IMG/VR virus record: IMGVR_UViG_3300031658_003780
Coordinates: 1 to 43,925 of that record
Origin: a virus
Direction: 5' to 3' (one strand)
Length of the DNA: 43,925 nucleotides
In this document: one piece after another, positions 12,431 through 26,563 of the stretch
Layout: every line of letters starts with the position of its first letter
Position numbering within the stretch: position 1 is the stretch's first letter
Program-made: the position numbers and the translations under genes
The notes under the pieces: generated by a model
What the model was told of the DNA's origin: nothing
What the model saw: the letters and a program-made list of their open reading frames with translations, nothing else
Databases searched by the model: none

Positions 12431-13045
12431 TTATTTTATTATATAATCTATCCACTTTGTTCCTTTAGTATCTATATTAGGAAATTCAAATACTCTTACA
12501 ATAGCGTGTTTATCATCACCAATTGTAATTGTCTTTCTAAACCCTGAGGGTATAGTTGCACCAGTCGGTAAAACTACTTCTTCTCCTTCAAATAATACGT
12601 CTACTCTTACTTTAACATCTTCGTTAAAGAAGTTTGCTGCTGATCTTTCAAAAGCCTCTAATCTACTCCATTGACCTCTATTTAACCCTTGATGCTGTAA
12701 AGCTGAATTAAGGTAAGAGAACGTTTTATACAGCATACCGGTATTACAGCTAAATGATGCTGCAGGTGCTAAATGACCTTTATCCCATATATTGTCTTTA
12801 TAGTCTTCATCATCTGAGGTTACAATCATGTCTGGTTCCCAGAATTCCATACCTACTCTTGAAGCATTTCCATTAGAACAGAGTACTGTATATTCTACCC
12901 ATAATGGTTGCTGTCTCTGTTGATCGTACTCTACTGTGAATATATCGGTTATTATAACTTGTGCGTTAGCAGTAGTTGAAGAAATAATAAAAGCAAAAGC
13001 CAATAACATCATCCAAAACAATTCTAATTTGTCTAATTTTTTCAT
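12431..13045 (-). CDS. Secreted DNA/RNA non-specific endonuclease (NucA/Serratia family)
   Basis: The 204-residue protein has an N-terminal signal peptide: LELFWMMLLAFAFIISSTT, then ANAQ as a probable cleavage site near residue 29. The catalytic motif is DKGHLAPAASF (the DRGH motif with Lys for Arg; general base His91). LNRGQWSRLE supplies the Mg-binding Asn122. Members cut DNA and RNA without sequence preference. Export means it would act in the periplasm or outside the cell, not on intracellular phage DNA. It is encoded between a NadR-like kinase and queF, 1 nt after the former. Possible roles are nucleotide scavenging or degrading incoming competitor DNA; both are inference. Confidence 0.85.
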   Translation of the reverse strand: MKKLDKLELFWMMLLAFAFIISSTTANAQVIITDIFTVEYDQQRQQPLWVEYTVLCSNGNASRVGMEFWEPDMIVTSDDEDYKDNIWDKGHLAPAASFSCNTGMLYKTFSYLNSALQHQGLNRGQWSRLEAFERSAANFFNEDVKVRVDVLFEGEEVVLPTGATIPSGFRKTITIGDDKHAIVRVFEFPNIDTKGTKWIDYIIK

Positions 13046-21902: not shown

Positions 21903-22019
21903 CTAAAAGTTCTTATAATTAAATGGGTCTCTGTTTTTTAACTCACGAATCTTTTTCTTATACGCTCTTGACGCTTTCCATGCGGTATAGTATTCTTTTA
22001 TTACTTTAAGTATTCTCAT
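21903..22019 (-). CDS. Small basic protein (38 aa)
   Basis: A 38-codon frame: MRILKVIKEYYTAWKASRAY, then KKKIRELKNRDPFNYKNF. Its ATG overlaps the carbamoyltransferase stop as ATGA (22016-22019). The ending 'KxxRDPFxYKxF' recalls short proteins in T4-like marine phages. Function unknown. The tight overlap and lysine-rich helical composition argue that it is real. Confidence 0.6.
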   Translation of the reverse strand: MRILKVIKEYYTAWKASRAYKKKIRELKNRDPFNYKNF

Positions 22020-23686
22020 TTTTTCATTATTAAATAATTGTTAATAACAAGATAAGGGATATCACTATTAATAAACCTTGTTACAGCTTGTTCTGGTGTT
22101 CTAGTTATCGTCTGATCTTTAAGGTTAAACGATGTATTTAGTACAACACCATGTCCTGATACTCTTTTTAGTTCCTGTAGTAATAAATAGTACTTTTTGT
22201 TCCTTTGTTTAGTAACTGATTGAATCCTAGCTGTATTATCTATGTGAGTAGCAGAAGGAAATAAGTTTTTAGCAGTCTCTTTTACTTTAACTACTTGATT
22301 CATATAAGGGACAGCTTCATTAGCGTCAAAATACTTATGTACATCCTCATTAAGAACTGATGGAGCAAAAGGTCTAAACCCTTCTCTCTTTTTTATTGTA
22401 TAGTTTAACTTATCTCTCATTTTAGCATTTGTTGGGGAAGCTAGTATACTTCTATTACCTAATGCTCTAGCTCCAAATTCCATACGGCCTTGAAACCATG
22501 CTACAATATTCTGGTTGTTAATTAGTGAAGCTGTTCGTTTTAGTAAAACTTCATAATCTAGTTTTAAAAAAGAAACTTTCCCTACGTTGTCCTCTAGTAC
22601 TCCCTGTATATACTCATCTGTATAATGGTTTCCTAAATAAGGTGTAATATTGGTATGTTTAGGTCCTAAATAAGCAACTAGACAAGCTCCTATAGCTGAT
22701 CCAGCATCTGAAGGTGCAAAAGGTATGTGGATATTTTTAAAGTACTTATAAGCTTTATTATTTGCTACTCCATTATATGCACATCCTCCTCCTAAACATA
22801 AATTGTCAGAATTACATATTAGTTTAGCTCTTTCTACTAATTTTAAAAACTCTCTTTCGTAAATATTCTGTAAAGCGCAAGCTAAATCTTTATGTTCTTG
22901 AGTAACTGGTTCTTCCGGTAAACGAGGTGCTAACTGAAGTAATCCTGCAAGGTGTTTCGTGAACATTATACTATCTGAGTATTCCCAGGTAAAGTATCCT
23001 TGGTCTATTTCGAATTTATTAGAAGTTACATTAATAAATACTTGGTCTAATTTTTCATAGTATGTATTAGGATTTCCATACGGTGATAACCCCATTACTT
23101 TGTATTCTCCTTCATTTGGCTTAAACCCTAAAAAAGCTGTTATAGTTGAATATAACATTCCTAATGAATGCGGGAAGTCTATACTTAATTTCTTATCAAT
23201 ACCTTTTTCATCTCCTTTACTTATAGTAACAGTTTCAAATTCTCCAACTCCGTCTACTGTTAAAATTGCTGCGTCTTTATAAGGGGAAGTATAAAAAGAA
23301 AAAGCAGCGTGAGATAAATGATGATCTATATATTTAATTTTACCCTTATATCCGTAGTTTTCTTTTAATAAAGTTTCTGGGTTATTTGCTTTATACTCTT
23401 TAAGGAATTTTCTGCGTTTAAAAAATGTTCTTATTGGCCTTTTTGCAAAAGACTTAAGAACTCTTTGTTTCTTCTTTTCCGGAACTTCATACCAGCATAC
23501 TTCATTAACTTCTTCCATACTAATGCCAGTATCTTTAAGGCACCAATTAATTGAATTTGTGGGAAAACTATAATCATGTTTAATCTCTGTAAATCTTTCT
23601 TCTTCTACAGCTGCTACTACTTTTCCGTCTATTACTAAACAAGCAGCACTATCATGGTAAAAAGCAGATATTCCTAATTGTATCAT
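22016..23686 (-). CDS. Carbamoyltransferase (NodU/CmcH/TobZ family)
   Basis: The 556-residue protein has the two-domain layout. A Kae1/ASKHA-type N-terminal domain shows GISAFYHDSAACLV (5-18), VEEERFTEIKHD, HHLSHAAFSFY with metal-binding His, TVDGVGE, LGGGCAYNGVANN and the following acidic FAPSDAGSAIGAC. A C-terminal YrdC-like domain has FGARALGNRSILASP and REGFRPFAPSVL. These enzymes make carbamoyl-AMP from carbamoyl phosphate and transfer the carbamoyl to a hydroxyl of a sugar or base. The acceptor in phage is unknown. The gene sits at the end of a run with an APS-kinase-like protein, a nucleotidyltransferase and DUF2061, so decoration of a sugar or modified base is inferred. Confidence 0.92.
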   Translation of the reverse strand: MIQLGISAFYHDSAACLVIDGKVVAAVEEERFTEIKHDYSFPTNSINWCLKDTGISMEEVNEVCWYEVPEKKKQRVLKSFAKRPIRTFFKRRKFLKEYKANNPETLLKENYGYKGKIKYIDHHLSHAAFSFYTSPYKDAAILTVDGVGEFETVTISKGDEKGIDKKLSIDFPHSLGMLYSTITAFLGFKPNEGEYKVMGLSPYGNPNTYYEKLDQVFINVTSNKFEIDQGYFTWEYSDSIMFTKHLAGLLQLAPRLPEEPVTQEHKDLACALQNIYEREFLKLVERAKLICNSDNLCLGGGCAYNGVANNKAYKYFKNIHIPFAPSDAGSAIGACLVAYLGPKHTNITPYLGNHYTDEYIQGVLEDNVGKVSFLKLDYEVLLKRTASLINNQNIVAWFQGRMEFGARALGNRSILASPTNAKMRDKLNYTIKKREGFRPFAPSVLNEDVHKYFDANEAVPYMNQVVKVKETAKNLFPSATHIDNTARIQSVTKQRNKKYYLLLQELKRVSGHGVVLNTSFNLKDQTITRTPEQAVTRFINSDIPYLVINNYLIMKK

Positions 23687-23892
23687 TCTTTATTTATTCC
23701 GTATTTACTGTACTTATACCAAGCTCTCTCATGAAAATAGTAAAGTATCATTTTTGTTATTACTTCTACTCCGCCAATTGAAAGTCCTATTTTCCAACTT
23801 CCTGTAATTAACCAAGATAGTATAAATGTATCTATAGTTCCAACTATTCTCCAAGATATAGTTTTAGCTAAATGTCTTTTATAATTTACCAT
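23683..23892 (-). CDS. DUF2061 membrane protein
   Basis: The 69-residue protein runs HLAKTISWRIVGTIDTFILS, then WLITGSWKIGLSIGGVEVITK and YYFHERAWYKYSKYG. Two hydrophobic helices and the 'KtisWRi.gt.dT.~~~~~itG....a..~g..e~~tK...yy.HER.W' pattern are those of DUF2061. In bacteria this family often neighbours sulfate-activation genes such as cysC, cysD and cysN. It overlaps the nucleotidyltransferase by 14 nt and the carbamoyltransferase by 4 nt. Confidence 0.88.
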   Translation of the reverse strand: MVNYKRHLAKTISWRIVGTIDTFILSWLITGSWKIGLSIGGVEVITKMILYYFHERAWYKYSKYGINKE

Positions 23893-24235
23893 CCTCCTTC
23901 ATTTGGTTTCTGATCTTAGTAGCTGAGATATCATGTATGTCCTTGGGAGGTACGTGCTCTATTACTTCGTATCCTACTCCCCTACCGTAATTAATTGACT
24001 CAATATCCGGAATCTTAATTACCTTAACTCTTCCTTCTTCTATTAAATCTTTAAGCTCTTCTGCTAAATTCATTAGGACTTCTTCTGCAGTCCAAGGTTG
24101 TGACGAATTAGGCTCTACATCTCTAATGCAAACTAATACGTTTTTACCTATTTTTAATCTTTGTTCGATTAACCATCTATGGCCTGGATGCCAAGGTTGC
24201 CATCTACCGATGTACATTGAAAATTGTTTGCTCAT
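23879..24235 (-). CDS. HxGH nucleotidyltransferase (adenylyl/cytidylyltransferase family)
   Basis: The 118-residue, single-domain protein carries YIGRWQPWHPGHRWLIEQ (8-25) with the HxGH motif at 16-19, VCIRDVEPNSSQPW, IPDIESINYGRGVGYEV, and DISATKIRNQ (103-109, the ISSTxIR motif). This is the catalytic core of HxGH nucleotidyltransferases such as NMN adenylyltransferase and cytidylyltransferases. The substrate cannot be read from sequence. Its operon with an APS-kinase-like gene favours sulfate or glycan activation; NadE elsewhere in the window makes an NMNAT role possible. It overlaps both neighbours by 4-14 nt. Confidence 0.85.
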   Translation of the reverse strand: MSKQFSMYIGRWQPWHPGHRWLIEQRLKIGKNVLVCIRDVEPNSSQPWTAEEVLMNLAEELKDLIEEGRVKVIKIPDIESINYGRGVGYEVIEHVPPKDIHDISATKIRNQMKEDGKL

Positions 24236-24672
24236 AATCCGAATACTATATGTTCTATTAAATTATATGATGCTTCTGGGGTATCTATTGTTGTGTTGAT
24301 AGCAATGAAGTCTTTTTTAGGAGCTATATAAGCTTCTGCTTTAAAATGATCTCTTTCTCTAGGTTCAGTAGTATAGACGTAAAATTCACAAATATTTTTT
24401 TCACCTATTAATGTTTTAAAATCCTCTCTTTGGTCAATATAAGGAGCTATTAAAGAAACAATAACTGTTCTTCCTTTTTTATGTAGGTAGTGTGCTATTT
24501 TTTGTGCTGTAGTTACGTTTTCTACTCTTCCTTTTATTGAATAGTCTTTATTAGTTGTTAACTCTCTTAAATCGTCTCCATCAATATGAAAAGAGCCTGG
24601 TATTGCTGTATGTAGCTTTTTAGCTAATGTAGTCTTTCCAGCTGCTGGCTGGCCTGTAAACCAATATATCAT
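24232..24672 (-). CDS. Adenylylsulfate kinase-like protein (CysC family)
   Basis: The 146-residue protein has Walker A GQPAAGKTT (7-15), then HIDGDDLRELTTNKDYS (29-45) with the APS kinase DGD(D/N)LR motif. VIVSLIAPYIDQREDF fits the 'VS.iaPyr..R' helix. Family function: ATP plus APS gives PAPS. It is about 30 residues shorter than typical CysC. It overlaps the nucleotidyltransferase gene by 4 nt. A PAPS-using sulfotransferase is present at 518-1102. Phosphorylation of a different small molecule is possible, since phage members diverge. Confidence 0.85.
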   Translation of the reverse strand: MIYWFTGQPAAGKTTLAKKLHTAIPGSFHIDGDDLRELTTNKDYSIKGRVENVTTAQKIAHYLHKKGRTVIVSLIAPYIDQREDFKTLIGEKNICEFYVYTTEPRERDHFKAEAYIAPKKDFIAINTTIDTPEASYNLIEHIVFGL

Positions 24673-24673
24673 A

Positions 24674-24868
24674 TTACTGTTTTGTTTTAGCTATTCTAGC
24701 TGCTTCAATTATTGCTTCTGTTGAATATTTAGTTAGGATTGTATAAGCTTCCTTAACCTCTTCTGGGGTAGGTATATAGTTGTTTATGTACCTTACTGAA
24801 GGAATGTTCTGTATGAGACTTGTTGTCTCATCATTATTTTCATACCATTTACTAATTGTATCGCTCAT
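24674..24868 (-). CDS. Small hypothetical protein (64 aa)
   Basis: The protein runs MSDTISKWYENNDETTSL, with PTPEEVKEAYTILTKY and a helical end (AAIEAARIAKTKQ-like). It is soluble, probably helical. The leader AAAGTTATG at its start is the common start motif. It is the first coding gene downstream of the structured RNA region and begins the APS-kinase/carbamoyltransferase unit, 1 nt before the next gene. Function unknown. Confidence 0.65.
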   Translation of the reverse strand: MSDTISKWYENNDETTSLIQNIPSVRYINNYIPTPEEVKEAYTILTKYSTEAIIEAARIAKTKQ

Positions 24869-24890
24869 AACTTTAAATCTTTTCTAATAT

Positions 24891-24933
24891 CTTTTTTTAC
24901 TAATTAATTCTCTCTACTTCTCAATTACAGCTT
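24891..24933 (-). repeat. 43-nt repeat, copy 2, in the structured RNA region
   Basis: It differs at two positions from 25360-25402. On the minus strand it starts AAGCTGTAATTG and ends TTAATTAGT plus an A-run. Similarity continues more weakly for about 25 nt upstream. Confidence 0.85.
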
Positions 24934-25063
24934 CACTACTTCTCTTAATAAAAAATTAATCACGGGCTATATAAAACGACAAAGTTATTATTTCAAACTT
25001 CCAAGTAGTTGCCAAGACTACGATTCCCTCCAACTAAGGAGTATCTTATTAAATAGTGATTAG

Positions 25064-25136
25064 TAACCCGTATGGGATTTGAACCCATGATCTTTTCCAT
25101 GAAAGGGAAACGACTTAACCACTTGTCCAACGGGTC
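25064..25136 (-). tRNA. tRNA-Glu (anticodon TTC)
   Basis: A full cloverleaf reads on the minus strand. The acceptor is GACCCGT with ACGGGTT (first pair G-U). The D stem is GAC/GTC. The anticodon stem is TTTCC/GGAAA with loop CTTTCAT, giving anticodon TTC for GAA/GAG. The T arm is ATGGG TTCAAAT CCCAT, followed by discriminator A. CCA is not encoded. The 73-nt length fits. It is embedded in the structured RNA region. Confidence 0.93.
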
Positions 25137-25359
25137 ATTTTGAAACTAAATGTGTTATGGGGCGATTGGGTTCAACGAACTTGCAATCACAACATACAAA
25201 GGCCGATTCTTACGTGTAACCTCTCGAGTGGTGCCAGCGCAACGCCATTTAGTTTCCAATTAAATACCGAAGTACTTAATTGTTTAATATAAGAGAGATG
25301 TTTCGGGTCTTTCAAGGTTTCTGATTGGGTGCAATTAGAGGCGTCTAGCTACTATAAAC

Positions 25360-25402
25360 CTTTTTTCACTAATTAATTCTCTCTACTTCCCAATTACAGC
25401 TT
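25360..25402 (-). repeat. 43-nt repeat, copy 1, in the structured RNA region
   Basis: It matches 24891-24933 with an offset of 469 nt and two differences. In both copies a small hairpin (ACAG/CTGT in this copy, wobble-paired in the other) and an outer pairing to an upstream GATTAA element are possible. Confidence 0.85.
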
Positions 25403-25518
25403 TACTGTCTCTCTTTAATATTTGTTAATCCCGTAGATTAACTGAGCATCTTAAGGGAATGCCATTGATAGAATTAAATTCTAACCCAAGTCCTTTACCC
25501 TTTGGGTAATGACGATCT

Positions 25519-25671
25519 TTAAATAGAACGATGTCTTCTTTTACTGTCCCATTCTACTTTTCTTGTACTACCCAACATGGATAGTCTTGCTACTTTACTG
25601 TTAAAGGAATCCCTCATACCGTTTACTTGGGTATTTCCGTTTTGCTGACTACTTGAATCTACTTTTACCAT
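25519..25671 (-). CDS. Possible small protein (50 aa) at the head of the RNA region
   Basis: A 50-codon frame starts MVKVDSSSQQNGNTQVNGMR and ends WDSKRRHRSI. It is polar and basic, with an A-rich leader (AAGTAAGTAAAAGTAATG). It lies between QueC and the hairpin-rich region and is the only frame of note in the first part of the 879-nt gap (24869-25747). It may be a real leader protein or simply the 5' part of a structured RNA. No family recognised. Confidence 0.35.
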   Translation of the reverse strand: MVKVDSSSQQNGNTQVNGMRDSFNSKVARLSMLGSTRKVEWDSKRRHRSI

Positions 25672-25718
25672 TACTTTTACTTACTTAATTAATATATATT
25701 GTTATTTACGAACATATA

Positions 25719-25727
25719 AATATACAA
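25719..25727 (-). promoter_or_regulatory. TTGTATATT promoter-like motif before the RNA region
   Basis: The minus strand reads TTTTTTGTATATTTATATG, one base off the recurring TCGTATATT. It lies 48 nt ahead of the 50-codon frame, just after the QueC stop. It would start a transcript through the structured RNA and tRNA into the 64-aa gene. Confidence 0.4.
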
Positions 25728-25747
25728 AAAATATTTTATGTCCCTAA

Positions 25748-26563
25748 TTAATCTCTTCCTTTAATAACGGCTGAATTATGGTCTGAAAGTATAAGCTCTA
25801 CATGCGTTTTCGCAACGTTGTATTCAACTTCTCCACTTTCATCCTCATATTGTACAGGGTCATCCACACCCAACATGATAAATGCTTCAATTCTTTCAAC
25901 AGATGATGCTGATTTATAGTCGCTATTACCGCTAGGATAAGGCTTATAGGAAGTATTAGTACGTTTGTACACTTCATTAAAATCAATTCCCAACTCTTTA
26001 ACCAGTTTCTGTCCATCTTTTAATATTCCAAATTTGTCTGTATCTAAGTAAGGAGTAAAATACCCTACTCTTTCTGCATCCCAATTCCCTTCTCGAAATG
26101 CTAAATCATCCGCGTCTCTAAACTCTTGTCTACAGTCCGGATATACTGCATGATCACCTGCGTGAATACCTAAAGCAATATCACAGGTCTCTTCTGCTTT
26201 ATTAGCTACTGATAATGCTACAGCTTGTGTAATAGAAGCAAATATCTTATTCCTATTAGGTACTACTGTTTCTTTCATATTATCATTCTCATAATGTCCT
26301 TCAGGTACATCATCTCCTCCTTCAACTAATGCTGAATCTAGAAGGCTTGCAAGACCGTCTAGTTTAATTTGACGATAATTAACTCTATGACCATTATCAG
26401 CTAGATAATTAATTAAAGATTGAGCCTTTTCTAACTCTACTCTATGCTTTTGACCATAATCAAATGAAATACCAGTTACGGTATCGTACTCTTTTAATGC
26501 TCTTAATAATAATGTGGAACTATCCATTCCACCGCTTAATGATACTACTACATGCTTTGCCAT
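25748..26563 (-). CDS. queC: 7-cyano-7-deazaguanine synthase QueC
   Basis: QueC converts 7-carboxy-7-deazaguanine to preQ0 with ATP and ammonia. The 271-residue protein has the PP-loop SLSGGMDSSTLL (8-19), GISFDYGQKHRVELEKA, VVPNRNKIFASIT and GIHAGDHAVYPDCRQEF, all QueC hallmarks. The usual C-terminal zinc site is missing. The region that should read like CY...CGxCxSCxxR is TSYKPYPSGNSDYKSASSVER (about 204-224), with Ser or other residues at the Cys positions; RIEAFIMLGVDDP then follows normally. It is not an assembly break, since the frame is intact. It is separated from the other que genes but completes the pathway. Confidence 0.93.
   Translation of the reverse strand: MAKHVVVSLSGGMDSSTLLLRALKEYDTVTGISFDYGQKHRVELEKAQSLINYLADNGHRVNYRQIKLDGLASLLDSALVEGGDDVPEGHYENDNMKETVVPNRNKIFASITQAVALSVANKAEETCDIALGIHAGDHAVYPDCRQEFRDADDLAFREGNWDAERVGYFTPYLDTDKFGILKDGQKLVKELGIDFNEVYKRTNTSYKPYPSGNSDYKSASSVERIEAFIMLGVDDPVQYEDESGEVEYNVAKTHVELILSDHNSAVIKGRD

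Follow-up and report, generated by a model that had tools for sequence, protein, structure and literature searches.

The T4 species 1 and 2 RNAs (rnaC and rnaD) are small stable RNAs encoded inside the phage tRNA cluster, and tmRNA (RF00023) carries a pseudoknot downstream of its tag frame. GOLLD and ROOL are phage-encoded structured RNAs, often located near tRNA islands, that form large homo-oligomeric cages; GOLLD often exceeds 800 nt (PMC12286853). The specificity domain of RNase P uses interdigitated T-loops to recognize the tRNA elbow (PMC4810234). Here, we describe an RNA module encoded beside a tRNA in a virus contig (IMG/VR record IMGVR_UViG_3300031658_003780; the whole 43,925-nt stretch analyzed is called the window), in which the likely protein-coding genes occupy the minus strand. 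The nearest known RNAs in setting are GOLLD and ROOL, which share with the module the location of a phage structured RNA near tRNAs; unlike them, the module is 90–130 nt long, portable and permutable, and shows no sequence or covariance model (CM) similarity to either. It also resembles the T4 species 1 and 2 RNAs as a small stable RNA in phage tRNA clusters. A closer similarity to rnaC and rnaD was considered and dropped, because no likeness was found: T4 gave no module match at E ≤ 0.001, and the two RNAs lack the module motifs. We rate the module as a new RNA class whose general kind, that of small stable RNAs encoded in phage tRNA clusters, is already known.

Organization of the region downstream of queC

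An earlier note, made from the sequence alone, had read positions 24869–25747 as a candidate ornate RNA in nearly 900 nt holding no convincing gene beyond a doubtful 50-codon frame. The features found there and in the flanking genes are given below in minus-strand order from queC, with the truncated module copy (24946–24899 in the direction of reading) coming after tRNA-Glu and joined to the leader of the 64-aa gene.

25748..26563, minus strand: queC homologue (Pfam QueC, 2.2e-38), upstream neighbour
25519..25671, minus strand: conserved 50-codon gene, its protein kept in many queC-linked phage loci
25426..25515, minus strand: 90-nt conserved stretch, with 93% identity to the sequence preceding the module in L128 and L130
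25291..25415, minus strand: structured RNA module, long subtype (match to CM R1 and covariation over 43 homologues)
25257..25282, minus strand: UUCG hairpin between the two RNA elements (from the sequence; kept in L156)
25142..25256, minus strand: second conserved RNA element (115-nt domain), outer stem 25246–25256/25142–25152
25063..25136, minus strand: tRNA-Glu (UUC) (ARAGORN; Rfam tRNA, 66.4 bits)
24899..24946, minus strand: truncated second module copy (direct repeat; resembles many modules in their 5′ half; without a CM score)
24674..24868, minus strand: 64-aa gene without a Pfam family, downstream neighbour

Several individual features reported in the earlier note were borne out. The hairpins are real, the tRNA is indeed tRNA-Glu(UUC), and the 11-bp stem said to close a 115-nt domain was found with its arms at 25142–25152 and 25246–25256. 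The 43-nt repeat is present in two copies (24899–24946 and 25368–25415) within a 74-nt repeat of 81% identity, and an exact 22-mer in it was observed twice versus 0 expected. This element corresponds to the 5′ half of an RNA of 125 nt, of which 24899–24946 is a truncated duplicate that contains the 5′ half only and ends before the pseudoknot strand. The 50-codon frame, previously considered doubtful, proved to be a real gene conserved as protein, with the pattern NGNTQxNxxR...MLGKxxKVxWDxxRRxRxI in relatives reached via queC. A +1 frameshift of this gene into 25510–25400, where the next frame is open, was rejected because the relatives share the stop position, followed by unrelated sequence.

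The proposal of one ornate RNA did not hold. The region consists of separate parts that occur apart in relatives, and its overall fold was near chance, being no better than that of shuffled sequence on either strand (z = −1.38 for minus and −0.73 for plus). Relatives carry tRNA-Ala, tRNA-Gln or tRNA-Ser at the position of tRNA-Glu. The contig L003, whose QueC is 100% identical, aligns with the window as far as 25518 and resumes the match at 24902, and contains between these points a different module subtype at the same site, tRNA-Ala and an unrelated gene; the stretch is therefore an exchange hot spot rather than one RNA gene. The supposed kinship with GOLLD and ROOL fared no better, as Rfam cmscan of 24600–26000, at the gathering threshold and at E ≤ 5, returned no match to either and the tRNA as the sole significant match. 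Instead of a single several-hundred-nt RNA with a conserved global fold, the region is a mosaic that includes a conserved gene. The earlier suggestion of a new RNA class missed by covariance models was correct in that a new structured, tRNA-linked phage RNA absent from Rfam is present, and incorrect as to its size and kind: a pseudoknotted module of ~90–130 nt, not an ornate RNA of ~900 nt.

The second RNA element has the core GGCGUUGC..GGCACC...AAGAAUCGG.CUUUGUAU...AUAACACA and is 91% identical in L156 and about 71–74% identical in L120/L171 and L142, with no match in Rfam. Both-sided changes in its outer stem (UAAAUG/CAUUUA, UAGAUG/CAUCUA, UGAAUG/CAUUCA) were recognized by eye in too few copies for a firm structure; L316, which shares an 18-mer only, was not counted as a homologue. 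Another conserved hairpin, roughly AGUACUUA..ACG..UA..CAUAAGAACA..CGU.CCAGGGUAAGUCUUUUG, lies just upstream of the module in L004, L120, L139, L188, L257 and L265, and its inner stem seems to covary (CGAU/AUCG, CGCU/AGCG). Near queC in the window, carbamoyltransferase, cytidylyltransferase-like and APS-kinase-like genes are clustered at 22016–23686 and 23879–24672, perhaps forming a nucleotide or sugar modification pathway.

Structure and covariation of the RNA module

The structure was derived by aligning 43 diverse copies of the module, and in the free-standing window copy it comprises the following parts.

25408–25415/25291–25298, minus strand: P1, outer stem
25397–25399/25321–25323, extended by 25389–25394/25324–25329, minus strand: P2, inner stem
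25368–25372/25345–25349, minus strand: P4 hairpin
25356–25362/25314–25320, minus strand: pseudoknot
25302–25313, minus strand: invariant loop GAAAGACCCGAA

The module, ~90–130 nt in size and ~125 nt in the window, consists of P1 and an internal loop together with an H-type pseudoknot, in which the tip of the P2–P4 arm pairs with the strand lying immediately 3′ of P2. Two loops, AG..A.GC and GAAAGACCCGAA, are invariant and present in the window copy, the former on the 5′ strand; in T4-like and T5-like phages they change together to GAGUACGC and GAAACACCCAAA, respectively. CM R1 matched the window at 25293–25414 with 75.8 bits (E = 1.3e-17), a score that is not independent because the identical copy L082 is in the model.

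Covariation in homologues, the absence of which the earlier note had taken as refuting its proposal, was detected for the module. Over the 43 copies, 92.2% of the cells were paired versus 75.1% after shuffling and 36–56% in slid versions, cells with double-sided changes numbered 134 versus 40.6, and the covariation score was 0.504 versus 0.180. Both-sided changes were found in 12 of 17 pairs, including all eight of P1, two of three in P2 and two of six in the pseudoknot (AU/GC in one and AU/UA/CG in the other). The invariance of the 3′ motif and of the four central pseudoknot pairs is partly built in, since the homologue search demanded the exact 3′ motif, a bias that mostly spares P1, P2 and the outer two pairs of the pseudoknot. 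L117 is a natural exception in sequence, with a GGGAU/AUCCC pseudoknot that still pairs. Taken together, these data leave very little doubt that the module is a real new structured RNA. Reading YGAAAG as a GNRA hairpin was disfavoured because T4-like and T5-like phages have YGAAAC without a matching change. A diverged module adjoins tRNA-Cys in Flavobacterium phage immuto (L083, 5783–5910); an extra hairpin separates its pseudoknot strand from the UGAAAGACC loop, and the remainder of the 3′ part is missing.

Distribution, carrier RNAs and tRNA setting

The repeat pattern matched only the near-identical contig L082 in the viral scan, and in relatives a 35-nt piece of the window recurred immediately ahead of tRNAs. 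Scanning IMG/VR for patterns containing the 3′ motif yielded 97 and 108 stretches, and CM R1 located the module in ~190 viral loci, including nearly all of those found by pattern as well as loci not chosen that way; scores were lower in T4-like and T5-like phages, which have other loop bases. CM matches under 30 bits (L030, 968–1050; L295; L298; L314) were taken as chance or motif-only. Among 84,980 prokaryotic genomes, 20 pattern matches led to one real module, located beside tRNAs in a Flavobacterium MAG contig (L312); no match was found among plasmids or in Rfam 15. Cultured carriers include phages of Klebsiella (RaK2, K64-1, KP13-26, KpGranit), of Erwinia and Pectobacterium (Erwinia Hena1, pEp_SNUABM_01, Pectobacterium My1), Pseudomonas Astolliot, Proteus PM135, T5-like phages, and the T4-like E. 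coli Mosigvirus phages mogra and FL31; the Mosigvirus module sits between tRNA-Met and tRNA-Arg. The module itself is not annotated in most of the cultured phages, and in the open-access literature we found no paper on its motif or on phage RNase P RNAs with a module domain.

CM searches of whole records found one copy in 70 of the 71 matching records and two in the remaining one, counts made with a model trained on the same collection, which could miss diverged second copies, and on records most of which may be incomplete. No copy was returned for T4 or for the permuted L101 record. In all, two sources have two copies, G023 and locus L253, and thus a single copy is the rule with exceptions.

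The module stands in the RNase P RNA of five phage loci.

L254, 376–650: phage RNase P RNA
L136, 1280–1560: phage RNase P RNA
L089, 3142–3418: phage RNase P RNA
L123, about 12700–13000: phage RNase P RNA
L242, near its start: phage RNase P RNA

These RNAs show the catalytic-domain pattern and no canonical specificity domain. Rfam RNase P matches span the module in L136 (E = 1.5e-8, 32 bits) and L254 (E = 1.4e-14, 54 bits), both significant yet under the curated thresholds; the L089 match was weaker, and L123 and L242 were recognized by the same landmarks. CR-I, the GCAA strand and UAGAUAAAU are present, with CAGAA..GG in three of the five. The module replaces P8–P14 between GGCAGG and GUACUGC (GUACUGCC), or between CGCAGG and GUACUGCG in L242, which we read from the sequence as the two strands of P7. 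It thus holds the same position on P7 as the specificity domain (P7–P14; RF00010), to which it has no sequence alignment and from which it differs in secondary structure, having an H-type pseudoknot in P1; the Rfam alignments of L136 and L254 did not place it convincingly on the CR-II/CR-III, P8–P12 fold of that domain. The five cases may trace to one event. L136 and L242 have many tRNAs and no extra copy besides that in RNase P.

In the tmRNA of L134 (2893–3362, ARAGORN), the module lies inside, after the tag frame. Thus, one phage tmRNA has the module at the position of a tmRNA pseudoknot, whereas the module also occurs alone and in unrelated RNAs. L169 contains the same kind of sequence adjoining a group I intron, which suggests that its carrier is a tmRNA as well. 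The group I intron of L185 (1328–1632, E = 1.1e-15) carries the module at P6 and adjoins a gene annotated as DNA polymerase. Circularly permuted modules, open at P2 or P3 and not at P1, were found in L169, L101, L193, L210 and L277. Permuted free-standing modules between protein genes (L210, L140, L162, L283 and L091) have a U-run after the closing P2 stem, an arrangement reminiscent of an intrinsic terminator.

A tRNA was found close by on the same strand at 103 of 160 distinct module sites (about two thirds) and at none on the opposite strand; ARAGORN detected no nearby tRNA at the other 57. The invariant motif precedes the next tRNA by a median of 32 nt, and the module often stops a few nt before it. 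Where the module has one tRNA neighbour, it lies upstream of the tRNA at 27 sites and downstream at 12.

Possible functions of the module

The module is used either free-standing, packed tightly between tRNA genes, or as a domain that a helix end joins to another phage RNA. Between tRNAs, it would be cut out by normal tRNA end processing. It may serve as a stable RNA acting in trans, to which the carrier would supply only expression and stability. We lean towards action in trans because usually one copy per genome suffices and the carrier is interchangeable; the single-copy pattern argues against a cis signal at each untranslated unit. Beyond location, the only functional clue comes from the RNase P RNAs, in which the module takes the place of the specificity domain. 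Like that domain, the module loops may dock on tRNAs or on molecules resembling them, most likely on the elbow; we tentatively prefer this mechanism in view of the replacement, the tRNA arrays and the tmRNA. Docking leaves some sites unexplained, given the 57 of 160 without a nearby tRNA and the intron carrier beside a gene annotated as DNA polymerase. On balance, the explanation as a whole, a new class of phage RNA that is free between tRNAs or a domain of a carrier, acts in trans and preferably docks on tRNAs, could equally well be right or wrong. Its narrowest form, a phage-specific, portable and usually single-copy trans RNA docking on tRNAs, either free or in RNase P (as a substitute specificity domain), tmRNA or an intron, is more doubtful.

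About as likely as tRNA docking, and possible without being probable, is a protein-binding or decoy RNA that titrates or recruits a single conserved protein of the host or the phage, be it a nuclease, a defence protein, an RNA chaperone or RNA polymerase, with the tRNA link reflecting where phages keep stable RNAs. The usual single copy regardless of the carrier, the broad range of phage hosts (Bacteroidota, Enterobacterales, Pseudomonas and Rhizobium) and the invariant unpaired bases, which resemble a recognition surface, are consistent with such a role, which however comes without a candidate protein and does not account for the exact substitution of the specificity domain in RNase P RNA. 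We consider it unlikely that the module acts in cis, as a PUT/EAR-like antiterminator or as a stabiliser of long untranslated phage transcripts: every carrier is an untranslated RNA and the module tends to lie upstream of a lone tRNA, but one copy per genome is usual despite several untranslated units, and a cis signal would require neither grafting into RNase P RNA and tmRNA nor circular permutation. A self-cleaving ribozyme freeing tRNAs from the array is quite improbable, since the compact pseudoknotted RNA with invariant loop bases, often ending just before a tRNA, also sits inside RNase P RNA, tmRNA and a group I intron, all of which need to stay whole, and the module region matches no small-ribozyme model in Rfam. 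That the module belongs to a single ~900-nt GOLLD/ROOL-type ornate RNA can practically be dismissed: a hairpin-rich phage RNA adjoining a tRNA would suit it, but Rfam matched neither GOLLD nor ROOL, the parts are kept apart by a coding gene, an independent element and the tRNA, the elements are found separately in relatives, and the global fold has a z of −1.4.

If the preferred reading of a tRNA-docking module is true, the module would be the fourth natural RNA that reads the tRNA elbow, beside RNase P, the T-box and the L1 stalk. To our knowledge, what the stable RNAs of phage tRNA arrays are for has been a question ever since the T4 species 1 and 2 RNAs, and the module provides one whose structure is defined, widespread and covarying, whose carriers are interchangeable and which usually occurs once per genome. 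Its presence in phages growing on E. coli K-12 (mogra and FL31) makes its function directly testable, and the phage RNase P RNAs with a replaced specificity domain constitute a natural experiment on tRNA recognition by RNase P.
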